This document shows, in pieces, positions 1,415-29,670 of a stretch of 64,000 nt of DNA. Each line of letters starts with the position of its first letter. The stretch's first letter is position 1. Below the pieces are notes generated by a model that saw nothing but the letters and a program-made list of their open reading frames with translations, ran no database searches and had not been told where the DNA came from. The stretch is from Vicinamibacteria bacterium (lineage in GTDB: Bacteria > Acidobacteriota > Vicinamibacteria > Fen-336), in assembly GCA_035570235.1 (NCBI GenBank), contig DATMML010000091.1, positions 1-64,000 of the forward strand. The letters run 5' to 3'. A program made the position numbers and the translations under genes.

Positions 1415-1421
1415 AGCGGCT

Positions 1422-1973: not shown

Positions 1974-1977
1974 CCCG

Positions 1978-2553: not shown

Positions 2554-2555
2554 GC

Positions 2556-5481: not shown

Positions 5482-5564
5482 GATGGCGACCATTTTGGGG
5501 ACCTCCTCGCCGGCGAGCAGCACCGCCGCGCTCGCCGGCCCGAAGGAGCGAAGGGGGTGAGGGG

Positions 5565-6065: not shown

Positions 6066-6082
6066 GTGTCCCCGAGGACCCG

Positions 6083-6388: not shown

Positions 6389-6516
6389 CACAGTGAAGCG
6401 AAGCCGCCAAGAGCACGGCCTACACCGAGTCGGGTCGAGGGCTGCCGCCTCTGAGAGCTCGAGGGCTCCGGTGCCTTCCCTTGGCTCGTCGGCAAAGACT
6501 AGGGGGGTAGGCCAGC
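6389..6516. other. Gap where nuoL and nuoM would normally be
   Basis: 128 bases between nuoK and nuoN. No frame shows any NuoL or NuoM motif, and no hairpin followed by a T run was seen. The last 20 bases hold a G-rich ribosome site for nuoN. The gap is longer than the others in this operon and would mark the point of loss if L and M were deleted; that is inference. Confidence 0.5.
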
Positions 6517-9778: not shown

Positions 9779-10339
9779 GTGAAGTTCATCCCGACCGAGA
9801 TTCCGGGGGTGGTGATCATCGAGCCCGACGTCCACCGCGACCCCCGCGGCTATTTCCTGGAGACATACCACGAACGCAAGTACGCGGAGGGGGGCATCCG
9901 GGGGCCCTTCGTCCAGGACAACCATTCGTTCTCGCTCCGGGGGACGCTGCGCGGCTTGCACGCTCAGCAGCGGCGCCCGCAGGGCAAGTTAGTCCGGGCC
10001 GTGGAGGGGGAGATGTTCGACGTGGCGGTGGACATCCGTCGCGGTTCCCCCACGTTTTCCAGATGGGTGGGGGTCACGCTCTCGGGCGAGAACCTGCGGC
10101 AGTTCTACATCCCGCCCGGCTTCGCCCACGGTTTCTGCGTTCTCTCCGAACGCGTGCACGTGGAGTACAAGTGCACAGACTTCTACGACCGTGAGGATGA
10201 GTTTGGTCTGGCCTGGAACGACCCCGAGATCGGCATCGCCTGGCCGATCAGGGAGCCCGTCTTGTCCGCCAAAGACGCCGCCGCCCCCCGATTGGACAAG
10301 ATCCGTGACCGCCTGCCCGTATTCGGGGAGTCCGCCTAA
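9779..10339 (+). CDS. rfbC: dTDP-4-dehydrorhamnose 3,5-epimerase
   Basis: 186 residues from the GTG at 9779, two bases after rfbB stops; a longer frame starting inside rfbB was rejected. It epimerises the product of RfbB. Cupin-fold signatures visible: [17 protein letters not shown] with the catalytic His, the [13 protein letters not shown] strand, and P-P-G-F-A-H-G-F. Its stop overlaps, on the opposite strand, the stop of the PDZ-protein gene, leaving no room for a terminator hairpin. Confidence 0.93.
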
Positions 10340-11514
10340 GGCAGCGAGGAGGGGGCCTTCACCTCGTGGTCCTGCTGCTTGCCCTCACGCTCGAAGACGA
10401 CGCGGAGTCTCTTGCCCGCGTTGGCCCGGATGGCCAGCTTCAGGTCCCAGACCGAGGCCACATTCTGGCCGTTCACGGAGACGATCCGATCGCCATCCTT
10501 GAATCCCATGTCGGAGGCCATCCCCCCCTTCACCACCACGGCCAGCATGTTCGGCTCGCTGTGGTAGTACTTGACCCCGAAGTTGAAGTCACGAGGATCG
10601 CCGCCCAGACCCAGCTCCTTCCGCCGGTCGGCGGGCACGGGCTCGGCGAAAGCCTTCGAGGTCTTGAGGGTGGTCAGGGCATCCTGCGGGAACACGATCG
10701 TGGCCTTCAGAGCCCGGGCCTGGGAGTACATGTCGGCGGGCGCTCCCATCCAGGAGTTGGCCTTCTGGGCCTCGGTGATGGCCTTGGTCATGAGGTCGAT
10801 GTACTTGTCGGCGGACGCCGAAATCTTCAGCACGTCCTCTGACATCCGCTTGCGGGTGGTATCGCTGGGCACGATCTTCTTGAGATCCTCGATCTGCTGC
10901 TTCAGATACTCGTGCGAGGTGTGGAGGGCGGTGCTGAGGTACTGGTTCTGGAAGCCAAAGGCCTTGTTCAGAGCCACTTCCGCATAGGCGGCCGCCACGT
11001 TCAAATCGTCGATGCCGATCCACACCTGCGCCATCTTCCGGTCGAAATCCTCGGTCGAGAAGATGGTTGCCCCTCCCGCCAGGTTGATCTCTACGACCGT
11101 CTGGCCGGCCTTGGCGTCCACGACCTTCTTCCATTGCAGCCGGCCGTTGTCGCTGGTCGCGGTCAGCAGGTGCTGGCCTGGCGTCACGGAGACTTTCCTG
11201 TCCTCGCCCGCCCGGAGGGTCGCGACCCTCTCGCTGTCCACCGCGACCACGCAGGCGAGGTCGGTCACGAGGAGCAAGATGGACGCTTGCGTTGAAACCC
11301 CACCCGCCCCTCCCCCCGAGCCCGCGTCCGTTCTGCCACCCGAGCTGCCGCCTTTACCCTTGGCACCGCCGGTCTTCGGAGGGATCTTGACTTCGGGGGG
11401 CGGCGGCTCCTGGCCTGCGGCAGGGAAGATGGGCGCGAGAAGGGCGAAAACCACCGCGAGAGCGGTGAACCACTGCGGACAACGCCTGATGAATGAGAGA
11501 GATGGAGAGGACAT
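10336..11514 (-). CDS. Membrane-anchored or secreted PDZ-domain protein
   Basis: 392 residues, starting at the ATG at 11514 behind AGGAGGT. Residues 12-33 form a signal peptide or anchor ending near A-A-G-Q. A Gly/Lys-rich linker (40-75) leads to a beta-rich segment at 76-145 with [12 protein letters not shown] and P-G-Q-H-L-L, resembling PEGA-type repeats. A helical region follows (155-300), then a PDZ domain at about 312-386 with G-D-R-I-V-S-V-N-G. No protease motif is visible, so it is probably a binding protein. It is the last gene of the five-gene operon reaching back to 17934, 28 bases after the FHA gene. The job is unknown; the PDZ domain may bind C-termini of exported partners. Confidence 0.8.
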
Positions 11515-11542
11515 CGTGTACAGACCTCCTGTGCTTCGCGCC

Positions 11543-13000
11543 TTACCAACCCACCCCGATGTTGACGCACTCCTGACGGCCGTAGGTGAGCCCTGAGAGC
11601 CAGGTCTGGGTGCCGGGGTCGCCCGGCTTCTTCTCGGCCTGCTCGGAAGCCCCTCCACCCTTCTTGGCCTTTCGCGGTGCCTTCTCCTCACTGGGGGCCT
11701 CGGGCGCGGCTGCCGCCGGCCGCCGCAGGGAAAAGGCATAGACGAGGGCGGAGCCGTCAAACGCGCAACGGGGCTCCTGCGAGCTGAGCTCGACCACGCG
11801 CTCGGCCCCCGGCTCCAGGACCAGCTTGAAGTCGCGGCCACAGAACTGGCTGTTGTAAGTGGTTAGCTTGTAGCCGCTGGCCTCCTCCGCGAGCTTGCGG
11901 TCGGCGATGCCGGGCAGGTCATCCTTGGCCACATACATGGCGCCCAGCCAGTTGATGGCCAGCGAGCTTCCAGACTTATTGCAGAGCTTGAGCTTGCCGT
12001 TCCGGAGGGCGCCGTTTTTCTGAAGGAGTCCAGCCATCTCGTACTTGGCCGCGGCCTGCCGCAAGTTCTGCAGCTCGGAGCCCTCCTCCATCTTCTTGAT
12101 GGCGGTCCGGTTCTTGCCCGCGCTCAGGGAGAAAAACGCGAAGAGGGCGATGAAACCCGTAGCCGCGAACACGAACACGCTGGTTGCGGGGGGCAACACG
12201 CTGGCACCCTTGGCGTGGGCGGCTTCCGGTAGGGGCGGCACCTCCACCTCCGCCCGCCTCTCCTCTGACTCCAGGAGGTCCGGATCCACCACCGGCTGGG
12301 CCGAGGGCAAGTCGGCCAAATGGTCCAGGGGGGAAGCTTCGGGCGAAAGAACGTGAAAGGCCTTGCTGAGAGAGGCCAGGTTCTTCTCGTAGGTGCTCTT
12401 CAGGACCGGGGTCTTGGCGTTGGCGAGCTTGAGCTGCAAGTCACGGGAAAGCTCCTCGTACCGCTCCTTGATCTCGTACGGTGAGGCCCCCGCGTGCACG
12501 CCAAGGACATCGGCCGCCTCGTCCTCCGCATTCCGCGCGGGGGCCGGGGGTGCGGCCGAGGAAGCCGGGCCCGACCGGACCGGCCCCGGCAGGGGGGGGG
12601 CGGCAGCGCGGACGGGGGCAGGGGCGGGCGCCCGGGGGGGAGGGCTGATCTCGGGCGTGGTCATGAGCACGGTGCCGCTCGTCTCGGGAGTGGTCATGAG
12701 CACGGTGCCCATCAGCCCGGCCTCGATCTCTACGCGGAAGTTGACCATGCCCAAGCGCAGTTCGTGACCGTCATGCAGCTCGGCCTCCGCCACTTTCTGG
12801 CCGTTCACGAAGGTTCCGTTGGCGCTGCCCTGGTCCACGACCGTCCAGCCCTCGCCACGATGCTCGATCACGGCGTGCTTGCGGGAGACCGACTTGTCCT
12901 CCACGACCACGTCGCAGGTGGCCTCGCGCCCCACCAGCGTGCGGTCGAGGGTGAACTCCAGCTCCGTTCCCGTCTCCCCAATGAGGCGCAAGTTGGCCAT
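11543..13000 (-). CDS. FHA / J-like / transmembrane protein
   Basis: 485 residues. An FHA domain fills residues 1-92, with GR at 24-25, S-V-S-R-K-H at 37-42 and NGT at 61-63, the residues that read phosphothreonine. Two copies of GTVLMTTPE follow at 98-106 and 109-117. After a Pro/Ala linker, residues 159-221 resemble a J domain (L-G-V-H-A-G-A, then E-I-K-E-R-Y, then A-F-H-V-L-S-P-E), but the H-P-D that activates Hsp70 is replaced by L-Q-L-K. A membrane helix spans 275-294. Residues 331-427 form a domain with C-N-K-S shared with the upstream 184-aa protein. Partner of the neighbouring Hsp70 by context; function unknown. Confidence 0.85.
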   Translation of the reverse strand: MANLRLIGETGTELEFTLDRTLVGREATCDVVVEDKSVSRKHAVIEHRGEGWTVVDQGSANGTFVNGQKVAEAELHDGHELRLGMVNFRVEIEAGLMGTVLMTTPETSGTVLMTTPEISPPPRAPAPAPVRAAAPPLPGPVRSGPASSAAPPAPARNAEDEAADVLGVHAGASPYEIKERYEELSRDLQLKLANAKTPVLKSTYEKNLASLSKAFHVLSPEASPLDHLADLPSAQPVVDPDLLESEERRAEVEVPPLPEAAHAKGASVLPPATSVFVFAATGFIALFAFFSLSAGKNRTAIKKMEEGSELQNLRQAAAKYEMAGLLQKNGALRNGKLKLCNKSGSSLAINWLGAMYVAKDDLPGIADRKLAEEASGYKLTTYNSQFCGRDFKLVLEPGAERVVELSSQEPRCAFDGSALVYAFSLRRPAAAAPEAPSEEKAPRKAKKGGGASEQAEKKPGDPGTQTWLSGLTYGRQECVNIGVGW

Positions 13001-13004
13001 GCTG

Positions 13005-13559
13005 TCACTCCACCGTGAAGCAGTCGCGGTCGAATCCCTTCCAGGGCCCTACCATGTTGTAGATCTTGGTGGCTTCCTCGGACTCCCGGATGTAGTTGAG
13101 GGAGTAGAACATCACCCCCCCCGTCCAGTTACAGCCCTCCTCCTCGGAGCTGAACGTGAAAATGTGGGACTCCCCCTTGTTCAGGATCTGGGGGCGCCAA
13201 GCCGGGCAGCGCGAGCTGTCGAAGATCGCGAGCTGCTTGCCGTCGTGAAAGACGGCCGTGATCCAGGGAATGGTCAAGGTATCGGCGCTCTTGTTGCAGA
13301 TCTGGAACTTGTGGTTCTGGAGGATGTCATAGGCCTTCTCGAGCACCGCGTTGCGGCTTTGCAGGGTCGCGATTTCGTTTTCCAGCGCGGTGGCCTTCGA
13401 CGACAGCGCACGCCATTCCCGTCCGGAGTTGAAGGCCACCACCGCCAAGGGGAGCGCGATCACGGCCGCGATGATGGTGGACCACTGGAACGAGGAGGGT
13501 TTCTTGGCGGGGGCGGCGGGGTCCGACTCGGCTTCGTGCGGCTTATGCTCTTTGCTCAT
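13005..13559 (-). CDS. Membrane-anchored coiled-coil protein with the C-N-K-S domain
   Basis: 184 residues. Cytoplasmic charged N-terminus (1-25), one membrane helix at about 28-44, a short coiled coil (48-82), then a domain at 83-184. That domain aligns by eye with residues 331-427 of the next protein in the operon: K-F-Q-I-C-N-K-S against K-L-K-L-C-N-K-S, then a Cys-containing strand and S-S-E-E-E-G-C against S-S-Q-E-P-R-C. Conserved Cys pairs would suit an oxidising, extracytoplasmic location. It overlaps the Hsp70 gene by ATGA, so the two are translationally coupled. I do not recognise the domain. Confidence 0.82.
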   Translation of the reverse strand: MSKEHKPHEAESDPAAPAKKPSSFQWSTIIAAVIALPLAVVAFNSGREWRALSSKATALENEIATLQSRNAVLEKAYDILQNHKFQICNKSADTLTIPWITAVFHDGKQLAIFDSSRCPAWRPQILNKGESHIFTFSSEEEGCNWTGGVMFYSLNYIRESEEATKIYNMVGPWKGFDRDCFTVE

Positions 13560-15085
13560 GTGATGATGTTGTTGATGACGGTGGCATCCACGAGGGACTT
13601 CTGCAAAGCGAGGTTGGCCGTCCCCCCTTCCTCGTCGCCCCCGAAAACCGCTGCCAGCTCCATCCCGGTCTGCGCATCATACGCTTCCGCGGCGATGGTG
13701 CCGTCCACCCGGTACTCGGTCGTCAGCTCGACGGGGTAGTTCTGGCGGGGCGCGCCCAGGGGACCCACAACCAAGTGGCCGAGGCTCACCAGCTTCTCCC
13801 CCGCATCGCGGTACTGCACGAAGTCGAGAACGATGCGTTCCTGCTTGGGCCGGCTGGTGTAGTAGGTCTTCCGCACCTTGATGGGCAGGGTCATGTTCTT
13901 CTTGATCAGGGGGTCCACGGCCACCCGCCCGCTGGCGGGGTCCACGGTGCGCACACCCACATGATACCCGCTCACCCCCTTCAGCTCGGGGGGTATGTGG
14001 AACATCTCCGCCTCGCCGCTGAGCTGGCTGGCATGGATGGCGGCTCCGTAGGCCACCGCCTTGCTCGGCTCGTGATAGAGCACATTCTGGCCGGGCTTGG
14101 AGAACATCTGCCGCAGCCGGGCCTCCGCCATGGGCACGAGCGAGGAGCCACCCACCAACAACAGGTGGTTCACGTCCCCCGGCTGAAGCCCTGCCTCCCG
14201 AACGCATCGCACCGTCTCGGCCTCGGTCTGGTCGACGATCTCCTTGATGGCGGCCTCAAACTCGCCCAGGCGGATTTCCACCTCGACCGCCTGTCCCCCG
14301 AGGAGAACGAGCTTGCGCACCGCCTTCTTGCCGGGCATGCAGAGCTCGATCTTGATCTCCTCGGAAACTCGTCGCAGGTCAAGCAGCGTGCGGGCCCCGG
14401 TTGCGATGGGCTTGCCAAGCGCCTTCTGGAACTGGTTGAGGACCATCTCCCCAACCTTCTCATCGATCTCCTTGCCTCCCAGCTCGGTGAGGCCAGTCTT
14501 GGCCAGGACGTAGACCCCGCTCGCATCCATGCTGAGGGCGGTGGCATCGAAGGTTCCGCCGCCAAAATCGTAGACGAGGAGGATCTTGTCCCGGGTGGAG
14601 GTCTCCACCCCGTAGTGCAGCGCCGCCGCCACCGGCTCCTCGACAAGGCCCAGCACCGTGACCTTGGCCAGGGCGGCCGCGTTCAGGAGGGCCTTGCGCT
14701 GGGGGTCGTTGAAGTGCGCGGGCACAGTGATGACCGCGCGCTCCACCCGTCCCGAGGACGCATTCTCGGCATCGAAGACCAGCTTCTTCAGGACGAGGGC
14801 GGAGAACGCCTCCGGCAGCCAGCCCGAGCCCTTCTCGTCGTAGAAGAGGGGTTCCGGGATGCCGAGGTGCCGCTTGAAGAAGCGAACCACCTGTATGGTG
14901 GGGTCGTTCTCCAGGAGGGCCTCGGCAAGGCTCCCTACGAACGCGCTGCTCTGCGCAACGTGGACCACGGAAGGGGTGTGGAACACCTCGGGATCCGCCT
15001 GGTCGGGGATGAGGTTGGGCCTCCCCTCGACATCCATCTCCGCAACGAGCGAGTACGTGGTGCCGAGGTCGATTCCTACCTTCAT
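13556..15085 (-). CDS. Hsp70-family protein lacking the helical lid
   Basis: 509 residues, against about 640 for DnaK. The ATPase domain (1-355) looks intact: G-I-D-L-G-T-T-Y at 4-11, Lys71 in F-F-K-R, the E-E-P at 149-151, D-F-G-G-G-T-F-D at 173-180, and V-G-G-S-S at 311-315. The remaining 150 residues look like the beta-sandwich substrate-binding part; the alpha-helical lid and acidic C-terminal tail are missing. It overlaps both neighbours by four bases. No grpE or canonical dnaJ is nearby; the J-like proteins in the locus lack HPD. Probably a dedicated Hsp70 for this system rather than the housekeeping chaperone. Confidence 0.9.
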   Translation of the reverse strand: MKVGIDLGTTYSLVAEMDVEGRPNLIPDQADPEVFHTPSVVHVAQSSAFVGSLAEALLENDPTIQVVRFFKRHLGIPEPLFYDEKGSGWLPEAFSALVLKKLVFDAENASSGRVERAVITVPAHFNDPQRKALLNAAALAKVTVLGLVEEPVAAALHYGVETSTRDKILLVYDFGGGTFDATALSMDASGVYVLAKTGLTELGGKEIDEKVGEMVLNQFQKALGKPIATGARTLLDLRRVSEEIKIELCMPGKKAVRKLVLLGGQAVEVEIRLGEFEAAIKEIVDQTEAETVRCVREAGLQPGDVNHLLLVGGSSLVPMAEARLRQMFSKPGQNVLYHEPSKAVAYGAAIHASQLSGEAEMFHIPPELKGVSGYHVGVRTVDPASGRVAVDPLIKKNMTLPIKVRKTYYTSRPKQERIVLDFVQYRDAGEKLVSLGHLVVGPLGAPRQNYPVELTTEYRVDGTIAAEAYDAQTGMELAAVFGGDEEGGTANLALQKSLVDATVINNIIT

Positions 15086-17934
15086 TTACTCGTGGGCTCG
15101 GCTGCGGGCGGGGCCGTGGCCGGGGTCGTCGGGCCTGGGAGGGACGCCGCCACCGCGGGGGCCAGCTTGTTCGCTTCGGGGGCGGGGGGCGGCGGAGCCG
15201 GAGGGGCCGGCGTCGGAGTCGTCGAGGAAGCGGGAGTGGCCGTTGGAGCGGGTGGCGCCGGCTTGCTCGCTTCGGCGGCGGGCGACGGAGCCAGAGGCGC
15301 CGACGTCGGCGTCGTCGAAGGAGCGGGAGCGGCGGCCGGAGCCGCGGCCGCCGGCATGCTCGCGGCGGCGGCGGGTGGAGCCGGAGGCGCTGGCGTCGGA
15401 GTCGTCGAAGGAGCAGGAGCGGCGGCAGGAGCCGGGGTCGCCGGCTTGCTCGCGGCGGCGGCGGGTGGAGCCGGAGCCGGAGCCGCTAGCGTCGGAGTCG
15501 TCGAAGGAGCAGGAGCGGCGGCAGGAGCCGGGGCCGCCGGCTTGCTCGCGGCGCCGGCGGGTGGCACCGGAGCCGGAGGTGCCGGCTGCGGGGTCGTCGA
15601 TGGGGCGGCGGCAGGAGCCGGAGTCGCTCCGGCCGGCTTGGTCACGGCGGCCAGAGGCCGAGGCGGAGCGGCCGGGGGCGGGGCGGCCAAGGTCGGAACC
15701 GCGGGCTTGACCGCCGAGGCCGTGGGTCGGGCCGTAGCCGGACTCGGCGCCCCGGATGAGACCGGCGGCGTGGTCGCGGCCGCGCCTGGCTTCGCGGGCG
15801 GCGTGGCCGCCGCGGGCTTGGGTGCAGGAGCGGACGTGCGCGCCGCGGCCTCCGCCTTCATGGCCGCGAACCTCGCCTTGGCTTCCTCGAGGGCACTCGG
15901 TTTGGCGGGGCCCGCGGGCGGGGTGGCGGCAGCCGCCGCGGGCTTCGCGGCACCCGCCCGGAGAGCCGCAAATTTCGCCTTGGCCTCTTCGAGAGCACTG
16001 GGCTTGGCGGGTCCCGCGGCCGGGGCGGCCGCCGCGGGCTTCGCAGCCGGAGCCGCCGGGCGGCCAGCCGCGGCCTGCGCTTTCAAGGCCTCGATCTTGG
16101 CCTTGGCGTCTTGGATCGCGCTCGAGGGTGCCCCACCAGGTGCCGCCGCCGCTGCGGCGGGCTTGGCGGCACCCGGCGCCCCCGGCTTGGGGAGGAGGGG
16201 CTTGAGGTCGCCTCGCACTTGCGCCAGGGCGGCCACGATCCCTTCCTTGGACTTTAGGGGGATGGCCAGCTTCTTCTCGGCCGTTTCCAGCTGCGTGAGC
16301 TGGCGGGTCAGCCGCTCCTTCTCAGGGCTAGCCTCGGCACCCCGGCGCGCCTGGTAATCCTTGACCGTCGTGTCCACATCCGCGAGCACGCTCGCAATCT
16401 GCTCGTTCATGTGCTGGAGGAGGATACTTGACCAATTCTTCTGAACATCGGTGAAGATCCGCTTGAGGTCCGGCCGGAGAGCGGTGCGGGCGGCCTCCAG
16501 CTCCTTCTCCAGATTCTCCACGCGCTGCTGGCGGGTAGAGCTGATCACGCTATAGGTACCGATAAGGACGAGGAGGATGGTGGCCGGTACCGTGAACTCC
16601 CGGTACTGCCTCATGAGCGACGACATCCCAAACATGGAGGCGGCCATCACCAGGATCATCGAGTACTTTCGGACGGAGGCGAAGTACTCGCTGAATCCAT
16701 GGTGCGGCATCTCGCCCCGGTACTGAGCCTGGAAGGCGATGCTCATGTCCATCATGCGCCGCACCCGATCCTCGGTGAGATAGGCGAAGTGCGGCACGAA
16801 GGGCGGTCCCTGGGCCTGGGCGATCTCCCTCTCGATCTCCTGGGACAGGAGCCGGAAGAGATCGTTCAGGGCTACCACGTCCCCCGCGCAATGGCGGGCA
16901 ACGCGGTCCCGGATCGTCTTCAGGAGCTTCTGCTCAAAGGCCGGGGGGATGCGGCATTCGATCTTGGTCGTGCCCTCTCTCTCGTCCAACTCGTCGAGGG
17001 CGAGCATCATGGCCTCGGTCTCATGCGCGAGCGTGCCCGCGGCCAGTCCGAGCAAATCCTGCAGCCTCTCGACCGCCCCTCGTTCAAATTCTTGGGAGTG
17101 GCGCTGGATCCGGGCCTTGATGTCGGGGATGAGATCGGCCCCCACTTGGGGGCCGGTCTTGGCCGCGCCCGGACCGGTCTTGCCGATCTTGGCCTGGGTC
17201 GCGGCCTTCTTGGTCCGGAGGTCGCGGGCCTGCTGCTGGAGGACGATGTCGAAGACGCCGCAGAGCGACTCCAGGGCCACTACCGTGGAGTGGGCGCGGA
17301 AGAGGTCGTGGGCGGCGTCCCAGGGGGCGACGGACAGGCGGGCCTGAAAGGACGTCTCGGGAATAGTAGCGGGGACGTCTCCGAGCAGAGCCGTCCAAGC
17401 CGACGCCTTTGCGCGCTCGTCGAGCTGCTTCACGGCCGGATCGTCTGGGGGCCCGATGACCACGACGCTGGGGCGGTCTTCCACGAGGCTTTCCAGGGCG
17501 GCCATGTTCTCCGGGTGCAGCGCAGTGGGGCTCCCTACGAGCAGGATCAGCACCGCGGGTCGAGGGGTCCCGGCGGGCACCGCCCCCCCGGACGCCAAAG
17601 AACGGATACGGGCTCGCAGGGGGACAAGGCCAGTTCCCCCCGGCAGCTCCACGGCCGTGGGCTCGACCGTTCGCGCCTGCAGGGGGGCGGCGGGGAAGCC
17701 GGCCCCGATCCAGCCCGCCACGCGACCCGCCTGGTCTCCCGCCACTGGTGCCACCACCACCACCTCGACTTCGAGGGCTTTGCGCGAGGAGTAGTCTTCG
17801 AGGTTGGCCAGACCCTGGCCCACGGCTTCGAGGCCCGGCAGCCCGCCCGTCTCCTTGATCGCCTTGTCGAGCTCGCCGATCATCTGGCGCACGGTGGGGA
17901 GGGCGGTGGGTAGGGTGACCTTGATCAATGCCAT
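15082..17934 (-). CDS. Large membrane protein, dynamin-like layout without a P-loop, Pro/Ala repeat tail
   Basis: 950 residues, first gene of the five-gene minus operon, behind AGGAGG. Residues 1-230 alternate strand and helix: an L-E-V-E-V-V-V-V strand followed by A-P-V-A-G-D-Q-A-G-R where a GTPase would have its P-loop, then P-T-A-V and a V-L-I-L-L-V-G strand. This recalls dynamin-like GTPases but with the nucleotide loop lost. A helical region follows, two hydrophobic segments (about 420-440 and 448-468), a coiled coil to about 560, then a 370-residue Ala/Pro tail. The tail holds three S-A-(L/I)-(E/Q)-(E/D)-A-K-A repeats and five P/S-S-T-T-P repeats. The dynamin link is inference from layout. 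Confidence 0.75.
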   Translation of the reverse strand: MALIKVTLPTALPTVRQMIGELDKAIKETGGLPGLEAVGQGLANLEDYSSRKALEVEVVVVAPVAGDQAGRVAGWIGAGFPAAPLQARTVEPTAVELPGGTGLVPLRARIRSLASGGAVPAGTPRPAVLILLVGSPTALHPENMAALESLVEDRPSVVVIGPPDDPAVKQLDERAKASAWTALLGDVPATIPETSFQARLSVAPWDAAHDLFRAHSTVVALESLCGVFDIVLQQQARDLRTKKAATQAKIGKTGPGAAKTGPQVGADLIPDIKARIQRHSQEFERGAVERLQDLLGLAAGTLAHETEAMMLALDELDEREGTTKIECRIPPAFEQKLLKTIRDRVARHCAGDVVALNDLFRLLSQEIEREIAQAQGPPFVPHFAYLTEDRVRRMMDMSIAFQAQYRGEMPHHGFSEYFASVRKYSMILVMAASMFGMSSLMRQYREFTVPATILLVLIGTYSVISSTRQQRVENLEKELEAARTALRPDLKRIFTDVQKNWSSILLQHMNEQIASVLADVDTTVKDYQARRGAEASPEKERLTRQLTQLETAEKKLAIPLKSKEGIVAALAQVRGDLKPLLPKPGAPGAAKPAAAAAAPGGAPSSAIQDAKAKIEALKAQAAAGRPAAPAAKPAAAAPAAGPAKPSALEEAKAKFAALRAGAAKPAAAAATPPAGPAKPSALEEAKARFAAMKAEAAARTSAPAPKPAAATPPAKPGAAATTPPVSSGAPSPATARPTASAVKPAVPTLAAPPPAAPPRPLAAVTKPAGATPAPAAAPSTTPQPAPPAPVPPAGAASKPAAPAPAAAPAPSTTPTLAAPAPAPPAAAASKPATPAPAAAPAPSTTPTPAPPAPPAAAASMPAAAAPAAAPAPSTTPTSAPLAPSPAAEASKPAPPAPTATPASSTTPTPAPPAPPPPAPEANKLAPAVAASLPGPTTPATAPPAAEPTSK
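15195..15640 (-). repeat. Five tandem 90-96 bp repeats encoding S-T-T-P-T units
   Basis: Within the tail of the 950-aa protein, a G-T-C-G-T-C-G-containing core recurs near 15212, 15305, 15395, 15491 and 15587. The period is 90-96 bases, always a multiple of three. Each copy encodes P-(S)-S-T-T-P followed by about 25 Ala/Pro residues. The frame-preserving period suggests selection on the protein. Thr-Thr-Pro units could be phosphorylation or FHA docking sites; this is inference. Confidence 0.7.
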
Positions 17935-18131: not shown

Positions 18132-18161
18132 TTGATCGCGCCTTGGGTTGGGGGATATACT
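18132..18161 (+). promoter_or_regulatory. Candidate promoter of the DUF481 gene
   Basis: TTGATC (18132-18137), an 18-base spacer, then TATACT (18156-18161), matching consensus at four and five of six positions. The predicted start is about 60 bases before the ATG at 18232. The position in a divergent gap supports it. Confidence 0.5.
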
Positions 18162-18231
18162 CCTGCTCCCCTCCGCGAACGAATTGAGGTCGCCCAGAAC
18201 TGATGTGCACTCTCGAACGAGGTTGCGATAT

Positions 18232-19200
18232 ATGAGACACCCATTTCGCGCTGCCGCCGTGGCGGCTCTGGCCTTCGCCTTTGGGATCCTCCCTGCGTCT
18301 AGCCGCGCGGAGACCAAACCCGTGGGGTGGTCAGCCAACATCAACCTGGGAGCCGTATTGACCCAGGGCAACACCGAGACCGTAAGCGCCACCCTGAAGG
18401 CCAGAGTCGAACGAAACTGGCTGCGAACCCTCTTCTACATCGACGGATCGGGCATGAGGCAGGATGCCACGGACAACACCTCGTATGCCGTGGGGGACGC
18501 TTCGTTTGTCCAGCCGAACGGCGGCGCGCCGGGAAAAGTCTGCACCGGCACATGTGTGGTTTTCCCAAACTCGGTACGGTCGACGAAGGCGGAGAAGTAC
18601 TCATTCGACATGGGCTTCGAGCGACGGATCACTGAGCGCGTCTTCTGGGACGCGGAAGGAGCCTACGATCGGGACCTGTTCAGTGGTGTGCAGCGCAAGG
18701 TGGCCGGGCGACTGGGCGTAGGCTACGTCTGGAGCAGCCGGGACAACGGCGATTTCAAGCTGGGCGTGCAGGCCACTTACACGGACCAACAAGAGATTAA
18801 CCCGAACCCGGACACCAAGGACCATTACGTGGGTGGTCGCGTGACCGCGGAGTACGACGTCAAGTTCGGGATGACCAAGCAAAACACCTTCAACAGCAAG
18901 CTCGCCGCGGACGAGGACCTTCAGGTCACGAACGACTTCCGAACTACCTGGGACAACACCCTGACCGTGAACATGACGCAGAAGCTGTCCCTCCAGGTGG
19001 GCGACAAGCTGGCGTTCCGCAACCTTCCGGCCTTGAATACGATTCCCCTCTTCGCTAGCCAGGCCCTGGCCCAGGCCGCGGGGGCGTCGGGTAGCGGCCA
19101 GACCCTGACCCCTTTCAAGAAGGTGGACAACACAGTGCAGGTAACACTGGTGATCAGCTGGACGCCGCACGCACCCACCGCCTCGCGGCCGACTCGGTAG
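18232..19200 (+). CDS. DUF481-family outer-membrane beta-barrel protein
   Basis: 322 residues from the ATG at 18232, behind GAGG. A signal peptide covers about residues 1-26, cut near S-S-R-A-E. The mature part alternates polar and hydrophobic residues in strands, with the family's opening pattern N-L-G-A-V-L-T-Q-G-N-T-E-T. Internal features are K-Y-S-F-D-M-G-F-E-R and a final strand V-Q-V-T-L-V-I-S-W. DUF481 proteins (YdiY type) are outer-membrane barrels of poorly known function, some salt-responsive. It is divergent from the Hsp70/FHA operon and precedes the second FHA gene. Confidence 0.85.
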   Translation: MRHPFRAAAVAALAFAFGILPASSRAETKPVGWSANINLGAVLTQGNTETVSATLKARVERNWLRTLFYIDGSGMRQDATDNTSYAVGDASFVQPNGGAPGKVCTGTCVVFPNSVRSTKAEKYSFDMGFERRITERVFWDAEGAYDRDLFSGVQRKVAGRLGVGYVWSSRDNGDFKLGVQATYTDQQEINPNPDTKDHYVGGRVTAEYDVKFGMTKQNTFNSKLAADEDLQVTNDFRTTWDNTLTVNMTQKLSLQVGDKLAFRNLPALNTIPLFASQALAQAAGASGSGQTLTPFKKVDNTVQVTLVISWTPHAPTASRPTR

Positions 19201-19291: not shown

Positions 19292-19927
19292 ATGACCAGC
19301 CTTTGGCTCTTACCCCCGGACGGCGATCCCATCCGGGTCGATGGCGACCGCAGTGTCGTCGGACGGGATCCCCACGTGGACGTGGTCGTCAACGACAACT
19401 CGGTGTCCCGCAAGCATGCGGTGATCGAGCGGGACTCGGACACTTGGATCGTGGCCGACCAGAAGAGCGCCAACGGCACCTGGATCGACGGCCAGCGGGT
19501 CATCCGCGCCATCCTCAAGCCTGGCCAGCAGGTCCGGTTCGGGGCGGTCAGCTTCGACATCAGCCTGGAAAAGCCGGCCTCCCGTGGCCGGGCGGGCCAG
19601 ACCGCCGAACCCCCCCCGCCCCCCCGTCGGCCCCAACCTCCCCCAGCCCCGCACGACTCGACCCGCGCCGCTCCTCCCCCCCGGCGCGGACATCCTCCCG
19701 CGGCGGGGGGGTCGTCGCTGGAGGAAGCGGCCGAACTGCTCGGAGTTCTTGCCGGTGCGCCCAAGCACGAGATCCGAAAAAAGTATCAAAAGATCTACAA
19801 CGACTACCAGATCCGCCTGACCAACGCTCCCACCCCAAGCCTGAAGCGTATGTATCAGAAGAACTTACAGGATCTGAAGGCCGCGGCAGAGCTTCTCTCG
19901 CCCGGAATCCTAGACGACGGGGCCTGA
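19292..19927 (+). CDS. FHA / J-like adaptor protein (soluble)
   Basis: 211 residues. The FHA domain (1-93) has GR at 24-25, S-V-S-R-K-H at 37-42 and NGT at 61-63, nearly the same as in the 485-aa protein. A Pro/Arg-rich linker (105-140) is followed by a J-like domain at 142-205 (E-L-L-G-V-L-A-G-A, then E-I-R-K-K-Y, then K-N-L-Q-D-L). It is collinear with that of the larger protein and likewise lacks HPD. There is no membrane helix. It reads like a soluble version of the same adaptor. It lies 91 bases after the DUF481 gene and just before the strong promoter of the coiled-coil run. Confidence 0.87.
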   Translation: MTSLWLLPPDGDPIRVDGDRSVVGRDPHVDVVVNDNSVSRKHAVIERDSDTWIVADQKSANGTWIDGQRVIRAILKPGQQVRFGAVSFDISLEKPASRGRAGQTAEPPPPPRRPQPPPAPHDSTRAAPPPRRGHPPAAGGSSLEEAAELLGVLAGAPKHEIRKKYQKIYNDYQIRLTNAPTPSLKRMYQKNLQDLKAAAELLSPGILDDGA

Positions 19928-20330: not shown

Positions 20331-21224
20331 ATGGCAAAGTCAGAGATGCAAGAGGCCCTAGCCGCAGCTGAGGCCGCAGCGGAGAAGCTGGCTTCGGAGG
20401 CGGAGCAGGCTCAGCAGGCCATCGAAGGGTTGAACAAGCGAGTCAACATGCTCGACGAGCGCATCGAACTGGTGGGAGACGAGTCCAAGACCCGCCTCCA
20501 GCACCTCATGGAGGAGCTCGAGAAGGCCCAGCACGACTACGACAGCCACGGCGCGACGCTCAAGCAGAACTACGCCGAGATGGTCAAGAAGGCGGGCGAG
20601 GTCGAGCACCAGACGGAAGAGCTCGTGCAGAAGATCCATGCGGGAACGCAGGAGGTCCAAGCGGCCCATCACGAGGTTGAGAACAACATCAACCATGAGG
20701 CGGACGACAAGAAGCACAAGATAACCGACCTCACGCAGAAGATCGAGCAGCTGCACAAGGGCGTCGAGGAGGAGGCCCACGAGGCCGAGACCCTGGTCAA
20801 CGCCTTCAAGGAGAATGTGGACCACGCCGTGCACTCCGTGAAGGACAACACCGACCACTTCACCAACGAGCTCAACCAGGTGAAGAGCACCCACGACGAG
20901 GAGACCCACAGCCTCTTCGACACCATCTCCCAGTTCGTGAGCCACGCCGGGAGCACCATGAGCGAGATGCACGGCAACCTGGAGCACATGACGGAAGGGG
21001 CAATCGGCCAGGTCGGGACGCAGTTCATGGAGCAGGCCATCAACGCCCTCACCGGCAGCTCCGGCCCTCTGCACAGCGCCTTCGAGACCCTGACCGGGAA
21101 TATCGGAAACAGCCACGAGAGCTTCATGGGCAAGTTCCAGGGCATCGCCTCGCAAGTGGAGAACATCACCGACGTCCTGAAGCCCATCGAGCCCGTGATC
21201 GACGCGATCAAGGCTCTGACCTAG
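20331..21224 (+). CDS. Coiled-coil protein 1 of a four-gene set
   Basis: 297 residues with no signal peptide. Nearly the whole chain up to about residue 215 is predicted helical with heptad spacing. It is acidic, rich in Glu, Gln, Lys and His, with only three Arg and three Pro. The last 70 residues are more Gly/Ser-rich and end in a hydrophobic amphipathic helix (D-V-L-K-P-I-E-P-V-I-D-A-I). A GGAGG ribosome site precedes the ATG. The heptad pattern resembles apolipoprotein-type or filament-forming helices, but no family is recognised. First gene behind the strong promoter; likely abundant. Confidence 0.82.
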   Translation: MAKSEMQEALAAAEAAAEKLASEAEQAQQAIEGLNKRVNMLDERIELVGDESKTRLQHLMEELEKAQHDYDSHGATLKQNYAEMVKKAGEVEHQTEELVQKIHAGTQEVQAAHHEVENNINHEADDKKHKITDLTQKIEQLHKGVEEEAHEAETLVNAFKENVDHAVHSVKDNTDHFTNELNQVKSTHDEETHSLFDTISQFVSHAGSTMSEMHGNLEHMTEGAIGQVGTQFMEQAINALTGSSGPLHSAFETLTGNIGNSHESFMGKFQGIASQVENITDVLKPIEPVIDAIKALT

Positions 21225-21264
21225 GGCGGCGTGAGCACTTAAGGCAAGGAGCGGAGGAATAGCA

Positions 21265-22242
21265 ATGGCCGACCCACTTGAACACGTACACGACTTCACC
21301 CAGCACCTGACCGCCGCCTCAGACGTGGTCCAGCACGGCACCGACAGCGTTGGCCAACAGGGCGACCAGGTCGACCACATCGAGGAGGGCTTCGCGAGCC
21401 ACGCCGAGGACTTCGTGAAGCTCGTGCAGCAGTTCACCGAGACCCTCACCCACGAGCACGCGGAGCTGAACGAAGAGTTCGAGCAGCTCCACACCGCCGT
21501 GACGGAGGGAACCAACCACCACCTGGGCGGGACCCTCGAGTACCTGGAGCACGCGGAGGAGGAGCACTCTCAGGTGCTGTCGCAGTCCGAGCAGCACCTC
21601 CACGAGCAGTACCAGAACCTGGATCAGCATGGCTTCCAGACCGTGGAACACACCCACCAGGAGGTCGATCACTCCGTGGGCGACCTTGATCACATGACCC
21701 AGGACACCTTCAAGACCTTCGGCGAGGGCGTGCACTCGCTGGAGAGCAACCTGAGCGAGCTCAAGGGCAAGACCGAGGATCACTTCCACGACATCATCGA
21801 GCATCTCGGGGGGCCCATCGCCAGCGCCCTCAAAGACACCTTCGAACACGCCACCCAAGGTTTTGCCCAGACCATCACCAGCAACTTCACGAGTCAGCTG
21901 GGTGAGCTGGGAGGGAACTTCACGAACCTCTTCAGCCAGTTCGGGCAGACCGCGGAAGAGGTCGGCTCGGAACTCATCAAGACCGGCGAGGACATCTTCA
22001 AGGACATGGTCGAGCACGCCGAGCAAGAGGTCACCCAGAAGATCGCGCAGACCGTGGAGCACGCCATCGAAGAGGTCATCGAGGAGCTGGTCCAGGAGCT
22101 GGTGGAGCACATCGTGGAGGGGACGGCGGGGGCTGCCGTCACCGCCGCCATCGGGGAGTTCGTGCCTCTCCTGGCCATTTGCAAGGCCATCCTGCCCATC
22201 ATCGACGAGCTGATCAAGGCCATGACCCTCGGTCTCGGCTAA
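21265..22242 (+). CDS. Coiled-coil protein 2: His-rich, no arginine
   Basis: 325 residues. I see no Arg at all, remarkable for a GC-rich genome where Arg codons are favoured. About 28 His and very many Glu/Asp/Gln give a strongly acidic protein. Long amphipathic helices run to about residue 290, often as E-H or H-x-x-E. The C-terminus (A-A-V-T-A-A-I-G-E-F-V-P-L-L-A, then I-L-P-I-I) is hydrophobic enough to insert into or lie on a membrane. There is no signal peptide. Preceded by GGAGG and 40 bases from gene 1. Function unknown; pH sensing, metal binding or a structural role are possibilities. Confidence 0.82.
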   Translation: MADPLEHVHDFTQHLTAASDVVQHGTDSVGQQGDQVDHIEEGFASHAEDFVKLVQQFTETLTHEHAELNEEFEQLHTAVTEGTNHHLGGTLEYLEHAEEEHSQVLSQSEQHLHEQYQNLDQHGFQTVEHTHQEVDHSVGDLDHMTQDTFKTFGEGVHSLESNLSELKGKTEDHFHDIIEHLGGPIASALKDTFEHATQGFAQTITSNFTSQLGELGGNFTNLFSQFGQTAEEVGSELIKTGEDIFKDMVEHAEQEVTQKIAQTVEHAIEEVIEELVQELVEHIVEGTAGAAVTAAIGEFVPLLAICKAILPIIDELIKAMTLGLG

Positions 22243-22279
22243 CCGGACCGGGCAATGAGCTGGAAGGGAGTTTTTGATC

Positions 22280-23215
22280 ATGTCTGATCTCCAAGAAACG
22301 TTGAAGCAGCTGGGGGACGATCTCCCCAAGATCACGCAAGAGATGGACCAGCTCGTCCACAGGGGGGCGGAGGCGGAGAAGAACGCAGACGATCTCCTGA
22401 AGACGTTCGAGCAGGTCGAGCAGGAGGCCCAATCGATCTTCCATGAGATCGAGCAGGCCTTGGCCGCCCTCAAGCAGGATGCCACCCATCACCTCCAGGA
22501 ATTGAACCAGGATCTGGCGGGCGTCGAGAAGGGCCTGGAGGAAGTGAAGACGCTCGAGCACACCCGCGACGAGCTGAAGAGTGGCGTCGAGGCCGCGGGC
22601 CACGCCATGACCAGCTTCCAGAGCAAGATGCAGGAAGGCGCCGAGGACCTCAACCATGCCCACGAGGAGTTCAAGAGCTCGCTCAACAAGGTGAAAGAGG
22701 GCGTGGAGGAGGGCCACAGCCAGCTGGAGCAGGCCCAGAACGAGGTCCACTCCGCAGGCGAGGCCCTGCAGCACAAGGTCGAGGAGAGCAAGAACAGCCT
22801 CAGCGACCTCATCCAGAATGTGTTCCACAACGCCATGGACCAGCACCTGCAAGAGACCGAGTCCAAGGTGACCGAGTTCCTCTCCGCGGCCCACAGCCTC
22901 GGGGATCAGTTCGAGCACCAGGCGACCGACCTCCTGAACAATGTGGTCAAGGCCAAGTCGCACGAGATCATGGACGAGGCCAAGAACAAGATCGAGGAGG
23001 AGCTCAAGTCGCTCATGGACAAGGCCACGGACGAGATCTGCCATGCCATCGAGGGAATGGTGGAGAAGGTCACCGGGGCCAAGGCCAGCTCGGAGGAGCA
23101 CAAGACCGCCACCAAGGGCCACGTCGACGCTGTCAACGAGTTCTCGGAGCCCTTCAAAGCCGCCATCGATGCGGTGAAGGGTGCCTGCGAGACCGTCGGT
23201 ATCAACTTCGGCTAG
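22280..23215 (+). CDS. Coiled-coil protein 3
   Basis: 311 residues from the ATG at 22280; a TTG six bases upstream is possible but less well placed relative to GGAAGGGAG. Continuous amphipathic helices with heptads, two Arg, about 20 His, and many Glu, Gln and Lys. Two Cys occur near the C-terminus (D-E-I-C-H, G-A-C-E-T). It ends with a short helix and G-I-N-F-G, similar in position to the C-terminal helices of its neighbours. Clearly of the same type as genes 1, 2 and 4, though direct similarity is mostly compositional. Confidence 0.82.
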   Translation: MSDLQETLKQLGDDLPKITQEMDQLVHRGAEAEKNADDLLKTFEQVEQEAQSIFHEIEQALAALKQDATHHLQELNQDLAGVEKGLEEVKTLEHTRDELKSGVEAAGHAMTSFQSKMQEGAEDLNHAHEEFKSSLNKVKEGVEEGHSQLEQAQNEVHSAGEALQHKVEESKNSLSDLIQNVFHNAMDQHLQETESKVTEFLSAAHSLGDQFEHQATDLLNNVVKAKSHEIMDEAKNKIEEELKSLMDKATDEICHAIEGMVEKVTGAKASSEEHKTATKGHVDAVNEFSEPFKAAIDAVKGACETVGINFG

Positions 23216-23261
23216 GTTTGGCGTCGCTTAGAGAAAACTGCGTAGGTAGAGGAGGATTTCC

Positions 23262-24173
23262 GTGAATCTAGAAGCTGCGGCAAGCAAGGCGCTCAGCGAC
23301 GTCAAGAACCTGATCAACGATTTCGGGGAAGGGTTCAAGGCTTTCGATGCCCTCGAGGAGTCTATCAAGAAGGTTTCTCAGGAGATCCACGCGGACTGGC
23401 CCCAGGCCCTGGAGAAGGCGAAGCACCTGCTGGATGACATCAAGCGCCAGCAGCACGATCTGGACGAAGAGGCGCATCACGCCGACCAGATCCTGAAGGA
23501 CGTGCAGCACAAGCTGGACGCCGCCCACCATGATGCCCAGGAGGCGTTGCAACAGACCCACCAGGGAGTCCAGGAGCTCGAGCAACACGTCCACGGCTTA
23601 GAGCCCGACGTGGCCCAGGTCTTGAGCCATGCCGAGGACACCGGACACTCACTCCGGGACGGGGCGAATCACCTCCACGACGAGTTCCACCACAAGGTGC
23701 AGGACGTAAGCCACTACATGCACAACGACGCGGTCAGCGGCTTTAAGGATTCGGAGAGCCACGTCGGGGATCACACCCACGAATACCACGATCACGTTCA
23801 GAGCAACGTGATGCCCGAGATCCAGAGCAAGCACGAGGACTGCCACCACCACATGGATGAGCACCATAGCCAGCTCGAGGAGAAGCTCAGCCAGCTGCAC
23901 CAGCAGCAGGAAGAGCACACCACCCAGTCCATGAACGACTGCCACGAGAAGCACAGCCAGGTCTTCCAGGACTTCACGCAGATCGGCGAGCAGGCCCAGC
24001 ACATCATGGATGCGCTCAGCAAGGCCGTCGACGCGGGGGGCACCGCCGTCCACGAGGGTAGCGAGGTCATCGGTGCGACCTGCGACAGCCTGGGTATCGG
24101 GCTCAAGCTGTGCATCGACATCTTCAAGGAAATTTCGGACATGTTCAAACACTTCTCGTTCCTCGGGCTCTAA
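23262..24173 (+). CDS. Coiled-coil protein 4: about 12% histidine
   Basis: 303 residues from the GTG at 23262 behind GAGGAGG. It holds about 37 His, densest at residues 160-240, with clusters such as D-H-T-H-E-Y-H-D-H and D-C-H-H-H-M-D-E-H-H. Only two Arg. The N-terminal 150 residues form regular amphipathic helices. Cys occurs in D-C-H and D-C-H-E settings, which together with His could bind zinc, nickel or copper. The C-terminal 45 residues are hydrophobic. No signal peptide. Last of the four, followed 16 bases later by a strong terminator. Confidence 0.82.
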   Translation: MNLEAAASKALSDVKNLINDFGEGFKAFDALEESIKKVSQEIHADWPQALEKAKHLLDDIKRQQHDLDEEAHHADQILKDVQHKLDAAHHDAQEALQQTHQGVQELEQHVHGLEPDVAQVLSHAEDTGHSLRDGANHLHDEFHHKVQDVSHYMHNDAVSGFKDSESHVGDHTHEYHDHVQSNVMPEIQSKHEDCHHHMDEHHSQLEEKLSQLHQQQEEHTTQSMNDCHEKHSQVFQDFTQIGEQAQHIMDALSKAVDAGGTAVHEGSEVIGATCDSLGIGLKLCIDIFKEISDMFKHFSFLGL

Positions 24174-24188
24174 GCGGGGGACGAGCAG

Positions 24189-24223
24189 AGCCGGGGGGCG
24201 GGCGCCCCCCGGCTTGTTGTTTC
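24189..24223 (+). terminator. Rho-independent terminator closing the coiled-coil operon
   Basis: AGCCGGGGGGC (from 24189) pairs perfectly with its complement ending at 24214, an 11-12 bp GC stem with a tiny loop, followed by TTGTTGTTT. This is the clearest intrinsic terminator I found, and it separates the four coiled-coil genes from the methyltransferase gene 23 bases beyond. Confidence 0.85.
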
Positions 24224-24245: not shown

Positions 24246-25865
24246 ATGGAGCAAGTCGGAGCGGGACCGCCGGCACCGGAGAGCGCTACCTTCGTCCTCG
24301 AAGAGAAAAAGCGCCTGTCCGACTCCTTGATCTGGCGCCTACAACGGGATTTCTACGGCCAAAAGGGCGAGGAGGCCTGGCTGACGGGCCGCACCCCGTA
24401 TTACGTCACCAGCAACGCCTTCATCGCCAACGCCTACGCAAGGGTGGTCGCGGGCTTCCTTCGGGACTGCGCCCGGGCCAGCTCCTCCCTCGGCCCCCTC
24501 GACCCCAGGGAGCCCGTCTACATCCTGGAGGTCGCGGCCGGATCCGGGAAGTTCGGCTTCCTCTTCCTGAAGAAGCTGCTCGCCCTCAAGCAAAGGATCC
24601 CCCTCTTGGCCGGCCTCACGTTGCGCTATGTGATGACCGACCTCGTGCCCGCCAACCTGAAGGCTTGGCAGGCGCGCGACCGTTTTCGCCCCTTCGTGGA
24701 AGCGGGGGTCCTCGATTTTGCGACTTTCGATCTGGAGCGGGACGAGAAAATCACCCTCGCCCATTCCGGGCAGACCCTCTCCGCGGAGAGCCTGAAGAAC
24801 CCCCTGGCCGTGATCGCCAACTACGCTTTCGATACCACCGCCCAGGATGCGTTCTGGATCAAGGGAGGAGCGCTGCAGGAGAGCCTGGTCACCACCGCCT
24901 CCACCCGAAAGGAAAAAGAGGGTCTCCCGGATCCGGAGACGTTGAAGCGAGTCTCCACCCGCTACGAGCAGCGGCCGGTGGAGGACGACTATTACGAGGA
25001 CGAGGCCATGAACCGGATCCTGGCCGCCTATCGGACGCGGCTGGGCGACACATCATTCCTCTTCCCTATCGGGGCCCTGAAGGGCATCCGAACCCTAAGG
25101 GCCATGGCCAGCGGGCGGATGCTCCTGCTCTCCGGCGACAAGGGCTACACCCACGAGGACGAGCTGACCGTGCGAGGCGATCCCCAGATGGCGTTGCACG
25201 GCGGCTTCTCCATGATGGTGAACTACCACGCCATCGGGCTCTATTTCCGCGAGCACGGGGGCCTGGCTCTCCATTCCTCATCCCGGAACAAGAGCCTCAA
25301 GGTGTCCGCCTTCCTGAGCGGAGCCCCCGAGGCCATGCTCGCGGAGACGCGCTCGGCATTCCACCAGGCCATCGACGGCTTCGGCCCCTGTGAGTACTAC
25401 GCCCTCGTCACCGGCATCCGCAAGGAGCTGCCCGCGCCATCCCTGGACGTGATTCTGGGCCTCCTCCGGGTCGGAGAGGGGGACCCCCACCTGGTCAGCC
25501 TGTTCGCGCTGCCCTTGGCCGATCACGCCAAGAAGGCGCCAGATCCCGCGCGGCGGGAGTTGGTCCGAGCCCTCGAGCAGGCCTGGGACCACTTCTATCC
25601 CATGGACCACGATCTGCCCTTCGAGCTGGGAAGGATCTACAGCGCCCTGGAGCGACCCTTGGACGCCCTCCGCTGCTACCTGGAGTCCCTGAGGCTGTAC
25701 AAGGAGCACCCCGCCACCCTCTTCAATGCCGGGCTCTGCCTGTACCGCCTGCAACGGCCCCAGGAGGCCCTCACCCTGATGGAACGGGCCCTCAGCATCC
25801 AGGAGGGATACGGACCGGCCCGGGAGTGGAGAATTCGCCTCCAGAGCGAGCTCGCGGGGCGCTGA
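24246..25865 (+). CDS. Class I SAM-dependent methyltransferase with TPR tail
   Basis: 539 residues. The SAM-binding motif I is Y-I-L-E-V-A-A-G-S-G-K-F-G at about 92-104, preceded by P-Y-Y-V-T-S-N-A-F-I. This order recalls MidA/NDUFAF7-type arginine methyltransferases (a Y-hydrophobic-T-S-P-x-I motif ahead of E-x-G-x-G), but the usual P after T-S is missing, so the family call is tentative. Residues from about 430 to the end read as two or three TPR helices (L-F-N-A-G-L-C-L-Y-R-L, then A-L-T-L-M-E-R-A-L). It lies between the coiled-coil set and complex I cluster 2. NDUFAF7 assists complex I assembly by methylating the NuoD homologue; whether this protein does so is open. Confidence 0.72.
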   Translation: MEQVGAGPPAPESATFVLEEKKRLSDSLIWRLQRDFYGQKGEEAWLTGRTPYYVTSNAFIANAYARVVAGFLRDCARASSSLGPLDPREPVYILEVAAGSGKFGFLFLKKLLALKQRIPLLAGLTLRYVMTDLVPANLKAWQARDRFRPFVEAGVLDFATFDLERDEKITLAHSGQTLSAESLKNPLAVIANYAFDTTAQDAFWIKGGALQESLVTTASTRKEKEGLPDPETLKRVSTRYEQRPVEDDYYEDEAMNRILAAYRTRLGDTSFLFPIGALKGIRTLRAMASGRMLLLSGDKGYTHEDELTVRGDPQMALHGGFSMMVNYHAIGLYFREHGGLALHSSSRNKSLKVSAFLSGAPEAMLAETRSAFHQAIDGFGPCEYYALVTGIRKELPAPSLDVILGLLRVGEGDPHLVSLFALPLADHAKKAPDPARRELVRALEQAWDHFYPMDHDLPFELGRIYSALERPLDALRCYLESLRLYKEHPATLFNAGLCLYRLQRPQEALTLMERALSIQEGYGPAREWRIRLQSELAGR

Positions 25866-27272: not shown

Positions 27273-27962
27273 ATGGGACTCTTGGACCTCTTCAAGGGAA
27301 AGTTCGTGGATCCTACCTACCCTGGGGTCCACGCAGGGGGGGACATCATCACCACCACCCTGGACGCGGTCGTGAAGTGGGGCCGTAAGTCCTCGCTTTG
27401 GCCGATGCCCTTCGGCACGGCCTGCTGCGCCATCGAGTTCATGGCGGTCTCCTTCTCGCACTACGACATCGCGCGCTTCGGGGCGGAGGTGCTGCGTTTC
27501 TCGCCGCGCCAGGCCGACCTCATGTTCGTAGCGGGGACAATCGTGGACAAGCAGGGCCCGATCCTGAAGACCATCTACGACCAGATGCCGGAGCCCAAGT
27601 GGGTCATTTCCATGGGTGTCTGCGCTTCCTCCGGGGGCTTCTACCGCTCCTACCACACCATGCAGGGAATCGACGAGATCATCCCCGTGGACGTGTATGT
27701 GCCGGGTTGCCCGCCCGCCCCCGAGGCCCTGCTCGCGGCGATCATGAAGATCCAGGAAAGGATCAAGAGGGGAGAGCAGGCCAAAGCGCCGCAGGGAGCG
27801 CACCGGCTGGGAGCCTCGGGAGAGGGGGCCATCGACCGGCGGGCCCGGCGGCAGGCTTGGGCCAAAGATGACGCGGAACGGCTGAAGCAGGGCCTCCCCC
27901 CGCGGGGCGTGATCCCGCTCCGGGTCATCCCGCCTGCGCCCCCCGAGACAAACCGTGGCTAG
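27273..27962 (+). CDS. nuoB: NADH-quinone oxidoreductase subunit B (cluster 2)
   Basis: 229 residues, longer than cluster 1 NuoB because of an added, charged C-terminal tail of about 50 residues. All N2 ligands are present: T-A-C-C-A-I-E, M-G-V-C-A-S-S and P-G-C-P-P-A-P. The N-terminus ([11 protein letters not shown]) also differs from cluster 1. It opens the nuoB-CD-G-I cluster and overlaps the nuoCD start by eight bases. It is a diverged paralogue of the copy at 1422-1973, not a recent duplicate. Confidence 0.95.
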
Positions 27963-29667: not shown

Positions 29668-29670
29668 CCC

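Follow-up and report, generated by a model that had tools for sequence, protein, structure and literature searches.

A four-gene cassette of acidic helical proteins next to a pseudodynamin-Hsp70 locus in Vicinamibacteria

The P1-P4 genes and their cassettes

The DNA analysed here (the window) comprises 64,000 nt of contig DATMML010000091.1 (GenBank assembly GCA_035570235.1) from a Vicinamibacteria bacterium, and the genes in question are four closely spaced open reading frames (ORFs), designated P1 to P4, that occupy positions 20331-24173 of its forward strand, each with a Shine-Dalgarno-like leader. P1 (20331..21224) encodes a predicted acidic amphipathic-helical rod protein of 297 amino acids (aa), and its orthologues range from 288 to 302 aa in nearly all of the cassettes described below. 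P2 (21265..22242; 325 aa) is the most acidic of the four and has a hydrophobic C-terminal segment at ca. residues 285-325; its orthologues have 317-329 aa, reaching 366-368 aa in some cassettes in which the C-terminus is altered. P3 (22280..23215; 311 aa, orthologues 305-313 aa) more probably starts at the ATG at 22280 than at the TTG at 22274, because its orthologues start there. P4 (23262..24173; 303 aa, orthologues 301-310 aa) is directly followed on the same strand by a terminator-like hairpin (24188..24215) with 12 pairs, 10 of them G-C, and a T-rich tail, a pattern match of a kind that is frequent by chance. A methyltransferase-like gene with C-terminal TPR repeats (24246-25865), not seen next to the other cassettes, comes directly after this hairpin.

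The initial annotation of this DNA had described four adjacent genes for almost uninterrupted amphipathic helices, nearly devoid of Arg and with His at about 12% in P4, and these traits are indeed present. The proteins contain 3, 0, 2 and 2 Arg residues, respectively, where the other genes of the window predict 25-28 (P values of 1e-8 to 3e-13), and 7.1, 8.6, 6.1 and 12.2% His versus 2.2% in those genes (P values of 7e-5 to 5e-17). The G+C content at third codon positions is 0.86-0.90 and the net charges are -31, -52, -35 and -37. That no named family fits is likewise borne out by profile searches, since every match of P1-P4 in Pfam and NCBIfam fell far below the curated cut-off and PHROGs and PADLOC gave generic coiled-coil matches only. 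A ZorA or SMC coiled coil was rejected, the matches being generic, under the NCBIfam cut-off and lacking the ATPase or MotA domain, as was a phage tail tape-measure protein (PHROG matches of at most 28 bits, with nuo and cellular genes as neighbours). A scan with P4 as a single protein over named genomes, a plasmid search and a search of Rfam returned no match.

Among 60 relatives searched, orthologues of P1-P4 were found in four genomes of the same family, which named records place in the Vicinamibacteria, Acidobacteriota. Their loci display the order P1-P2-P3-P4 and the same neighbours, with one P4 beyond the contig end. A P1 profile located 19 cassettes in six genomes of this family, with 4 in the window's own genome (G000), 2 in G001, 7 in G002 and 2 each in G005, G011 and G013 (G numbers other than G000 denote other genomes and L numbers the loci read). 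The remote copies of P1 adjoin matches to the P2, P3 and P4 profiles wherever the contig is long enough, with two exceptions: in G005, the altered P2 of one cassette falls below threshold, and on contig C164 of G002 a P2 was recognised beside P1 and no P3 or P4 was recognised in the stretch read. Cassette 3 of G000 (L049:7570-11329) has the rearranged order P1-P4-P2-P3 and substitutes Arg for Lys and His. An additional acidic ORF of 195 aa (L050:4488-5075) overlaps the end of cassette 4 and falls outside what was seen in other cassettes.

Length is nearly constant at each position of the cassette. In the first sets of orthologues, P1 measured 295-297 aa (n=8), P2 323-326 aa (n=6), P3 310-313 aa (n=6) and P4 302-310 aa (n=6), at a mean pairwise identity of ca. 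22%, and the remote cassettes have nearly the same lengths, with typical values of ca. 296, 324, 310 and 304 aa. The long P2 variants carry C-terminal NLIGEDGASLVAAGAG-type repeats (see L016:2718-3818, L078:9765-10871 and the P2 place in L077). These repeats were considered as marks of adhesins and this was rejected, the repeats having been found only in the P2 variants of three genomes (G011, G013 and G005).

Helical period and basic residues of P1-P4

Hydrophobic residues recur in P1-P4 with a helical period near 3.56-3.64 residues and a power far above that of shuffled sequences. At the family level the period is ca. 3.55 near the N-terminus and drifts to 3.6-3.8 downstream, P4 drifting differently from the others. 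Local period profiles of the first orthologues were recovered from independent cassettes with r = 0.96, 0.63, 0.96 and 0.97 for P1 to P4, respectively, against -0.27 to -0.49 for reversed profiles, and the profiles of P1 and P3 match in parallel (r = 0.91; at most 0.09 for shifted controls). The four families align colinearly and more strongly than reversed-sequence controls (for P1 and P4, an E-value of 1e-14 over 292 columns versus 2e-8 over 143), which suggests that P1-P4 are probably paralogues.

Each protein had been said to end in a hydrophobic helix. This holds fully for P2 and in part for P4, whose C-terminal ends have 19-residue Kyte-Doolittle means of 1.99 and 1.41, and does not apply to P1 and P3 (0.77 and 0.68), in which the end is amphipathic.

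Such amphipathic helices, together with the hydrophobic end of P2 and a dynamin-fold neighbour (see below), could point to coats of membrane, lipid or polymer without defined rods, resembling apolipoproteins, late embryogenesis abundant (LEA) proteins or phasins. Weak apolipoprotein matches were obtained (PF01442, E-value 2.5e-7; ApoA-IV, 1e-8), but all lie far under the curated cut-offs, and identity with apolipoprotein A1/A4/E was rejected at no more than 31 bits for a PF01442 cut-off of 90. A coating role would moreover leave the near-constant lengths, the one-of-each stoichiometry and the type-specific period profiles without a reason, and the strong negative charge disfavours anionic membranes, so that it appears improbable.

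The bias in basic residues, which had been presented as shared by the four proteins and necessarily selected, is common to all four, yet it follows the cassette. In the 11 complete cassettes, 76% of the variance in Arg, 83% in Lys, 86% in His and 81% in Ala is attributable to cassette identity, and 2-7% to protein type; the chemistry of the basic residues is thus a property of the cassette and not of the protein type. Within G000, Arg and His stand at 0.6% and 8.5% in set 1 and at 9.0% and 1.2% in set 3, the individual proteins of set 3 ranging from 6 to 14% Arg with 0-2% Lys. Set 1 can therefore not be explained by a mutation bias acting on the whole genome, and, as other cassettes of the same genome use Arg freely, the core function does not require a composition poor in Arg and rich in His. 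The cassette linked to the neighbouring locus is Arg-poor in five of the six genomes. High His is limited to G000 and G001, and a tree built from the large membrane protein described below does not place these two as sisters (with moderate support).

At the His positions orthologues carry Gln, Arg, Asn, Lys or Glu and not hydrophobic residues. Pairs of His with Asp or Glu at i,i+4 are enriched (86 versus 48 expected; z = 6.6) and His-His pairs at i,i+3 and i,i+4 fall short of expectation (8 versus 21.7), which argues that His acts as a salt-bridge partner. These counts also bear on the suggestion that the His-rich proteins form a metal store or a pH-responsive gel. A His content of up to 12% speaks for it, and the His-acid enrichment implies that helix stability should vary with pH, making an effect of pH through His possible; nevertheless, the pairs with metal-binding spacing on a helix are precisely those that are depleted, and most orthologous cassettes have only 0-4% His, leaving a metal store disfavoured and this explanation as a whole the least likely of all those considered.

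A single-copy locus next to the cassette

The cassette adjoins a single-copy locus which the initial annotation had overlooked, along with the orthologous cassettes and the constancy of length. On the reverse strand it includes a gene for an exported-looking protein (10336..11655) that has a PEGA-like segment recognised by eye and a C-terminal PDZ domain (PDZ_6, E-value 3e-10), with counterparts in L010, L011 and L016. Next are a protein with an FHA domain, a J-like domain, a hydrophobic segment and a C-terminal domain (11543..13000), a small protein of 184 aa that is probably membrane-anchored (13005..13559; located between the Hsp70 and FHA genes, at the same place in L016 and within ORFs of two other loci), an Hsp70 of 509 aa (13556..15085) and a large membrane protein (15082..17934). 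The forward strand carries a DUF481 protein (18148..19200; PF04338, E-value 2e-22), a probable outer-membrane barrel with counterparts in L008, L009 and L011, and a second FHA protein with a J-like domain (19292..19927). The locus and the cassette are flanked by two separate nuo (NADH dehydrogenase) sets at 1356-8016 and 27273-31260, each with a nuoB-like gene (1356-1973 and 27273-27962).

The predicted structure of the large membrane protein (mean predicted local distance difference test, pLDDT, of 79) has BDLP (probability 1.00, E-value 2.9e-8), IniA, LeoA, Drp1 and OPA1 as its top Foldseek matches and aligns to mitofusin-1 with a Z-score of 12.6 over 261 residues, indicating a dynamin/mitofusin-like fold at the level of the model. 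Besides the GTPase-like region, the protein has long helices, a membrane hairpin at ca. residues 415-465 that is conserved among orthologues and a low-complexity tail. The P-loop (G1), G3 and G4 motifs are absent from all seven orthologues, the G3 and G4 regions being degenerate, and for this reason the protein is called here a pseudodynamin, predicted to have the fold of dynamin without being a dynamin GTPase. Elsewhere in G000 the only Dynamin_N match adjoins genes of the era-region type and is probably Era; viral contigs searched with the pseudodynamin gave no relative.

The Hsp70 scores above the Pfam cut-off (E-value 1e-68) and has the nucleotide-site motifs; its matches stop near DnaK residue 500, which indicates that it has no lid. 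The J-like domains of both FHA proteins are devoid of the HPD motif (NDYQIRL in the second) and score 14-22 bits against DnaJ (E-values of 2e-4 to 0.05), below the Pfam cut-off of 27.8; in a profile search with them, J-domain proteins rank first (E-value 0.001).

The pseudodynamin and P1 occur together in the same six of the 14 genomes of the family, with neither in the other eight (chance of 1/3003). Over 193 genomes of the class, P1 is confined to those six and a seventh genome has a fragment of the pseudodynamin alone.

Defence systems can include dynamin-like proteins (LeoBC in PADLOC), and weak matches of P1-P4 to ZorA coiled-coil tails and to MakB might suggest a module for antiphage defence or an alpha-helical pore-forming toxin with several components. 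These matches are generic to coiled coils and reach no curated cut-off, no effector enzyme was found, and P1-P4 have no central hydrophobic segment, so that such a role is very unlikely, if only slightly less so than metal storage or gel formation.

A more serious alternative, still clearly less probable than the reading preferred below, is that P1-P4 are exported as the substrates of a trans-envelope apparatus encoded by this locus, the remote cassettes providing alternative fibres and the C-terminus of P2 a variable tip. The Hsp70 and FHA proteins would then act in the cytosol, the pseudodynamin and membrane proteins in the inner membrane, the PDZ protein in the periplasm and the DUF481 barrel in the outer membrane, and the locus does have predicted components for every envelope layer. 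A single machine accompanied by several variable cassettes is what one would see for a machine acting on substrates, the first ca. 20 residues are the most conserved part of P1, P3 and P4 or among the most conserved, and the altered, repeat-bearing P2 C-termini would suit a tip. Against export, no Sec signal was seen on P1-P4, the locus yielded neither a secretion ATPase nor a channel that could be recognised, and we know of no DUF481 protein that is an exporter.

Near other copies of the machine genes, L019 (another Acidobacteriota class) has an 853-aa repetitive protein with 11-residue TAAGEAQSAEG units adjoining pseudodynamin-Hsp70 genes (L019:11766-14327) and a pair of similar proteins that look exported, in which PEGA-like and DUF1566-like segments were seen by eye (L019:2139-3314 and L019:6667-7560). 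In L040, an acidic, Arg-poor (1.2%) TLEELKAEF-repeat protein lies by a pseudodynamin-Hsp70 pair at the contig end (L040:1-1702), followed by a Ser/Thr kinase having a caspase-like domain (L040:6784-8922).

A candidate rod-handling system and its comparison with known systems

The cassette rule, the constancy of length and the reproducible periodicity together speak for P1-P4 as the four subunits of a single rod of fixed length; a helical rod or filament is favoured, filaments being among the possibilities that had been listed initially. The linkage of cassette and locus favours handling by the Hsp70, J-like and pseudodynamin machine at the inner membrane. The best reading, to which we give about an even chance, is that P1-P4 form a co-assembled rod of fixed length handled by an inner-membrane machine powered by Hsp70.

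The cassette structure with its constant lengths, periodicity and cassette-wise composition, the co-occurrence with the locus, the dynamin-like fold, the lost G motifs and the J-like domains are shown by computation; co-assembly, the energy source, the site of action at the membrane and the purpose are inferred in this scheme. P1-P4 would be ancient paralogues, one of each being made, that assemble together into a helical rod or bundle, ca. 44 nm long if a helix of 297 residues were straight. The pseudodynamin would be anchored in the inner membrane by its hairpin, and the lidless Hsp70, with its intact nucleotide motifs, would replace GTP as the source of energy. The J-like domains of the two FHA proteins, one of which has a probable membrane segment, would recruit or regulate the Hsp70, perhaps upon Thr phosphorylation, and the machine would assemble, remodel or disassemble rods, with remote cassettes supplying it with alternative rod types. 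A bolder version is rather doubtful, a little more so than export: a GTPase-dead dynamin driven by Hsp70 would handle interchangeable four-part rods, the charge chemistry of each cassette (Arg-free His/Lys, Lys only or Arg only) would block cross-assembly and P2 would be the variable tip.

Several observations weigh against a fixed-length rod tied to this machine. The period profile of P4 is unlike those of P1-P3, so that a four-strand in-register bundle is not established, and the AlphaFold2 model of P2 (six sequences) has a pLDDT of 37, so that rod and bundle rest on the periodicity of the sequences. The C-terminus of P2 is altered in some cassettes. Co-occurrence partly reflects descent, the carriers being relatives, and all genomes carrying the system are metagenome-assembled. 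In G198 and G360, from another class, the machine is found without P1-P4 and each copy adjoins an unrelated repetitive helical protein, indicating that the machine does not strictly need the P1-P4 cassette.

A four-gene cassette with products of nearly constant length despite divergence to ca. 20% identity, multiplying as a unit beside a single dynamin-Hsp70 machine, is undescribed in the literature searched. Tropomyosin and other fixed-length coiled-coil rods resemble P1-P4 in near-constant length, continuous helix and conserved ends, but here there are four paralogues with a period of 3.55-3.8 in place of strict heptads, and homology is not established. The mitochondrial import motor (Pam16, Hsp70) likewise combines an HPD-less J-like domain with Hsp70, at least one J-like protein probably being at the membrane; the present domains differ in their fusion to FHA, and a canonical HPD-bearing partner was not found in the locus. 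BDLP, IniA, LeoA and Cj-DLP1/2 share the fold of the pseudodynamin, which unlike them lacks the P-loop, G3 and G4 motifs. The mycobacterial IniA gene also adjoins a gene for a repetitive protein, IniB, to which P1-P4 have no resemblance to our knowledge.

The closest parallel is the cyanobacterial "chaperone group" of bacterial dynamin-like proteins, in which a dynamin-like gene is linked to a DnaK-domain gene (PMC5827413), a gene-neighbourhood note that was the sole item found in the literature on links between bacterial dynamins and Hsp70. Compared with that group, the G motifs are lost here and the FHA/J-like, PDZ, DUF481 and P1-P4 proteins are added. The system described here suggests that a protein of the dynamin family could operate with Hsp70 instead of GTP. 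Being compact and bacterial, it would also lend itself to the study of supercoil matching and assembly specificity in defined rods of hetero-oligomeric make-up, and of such rods themselves.

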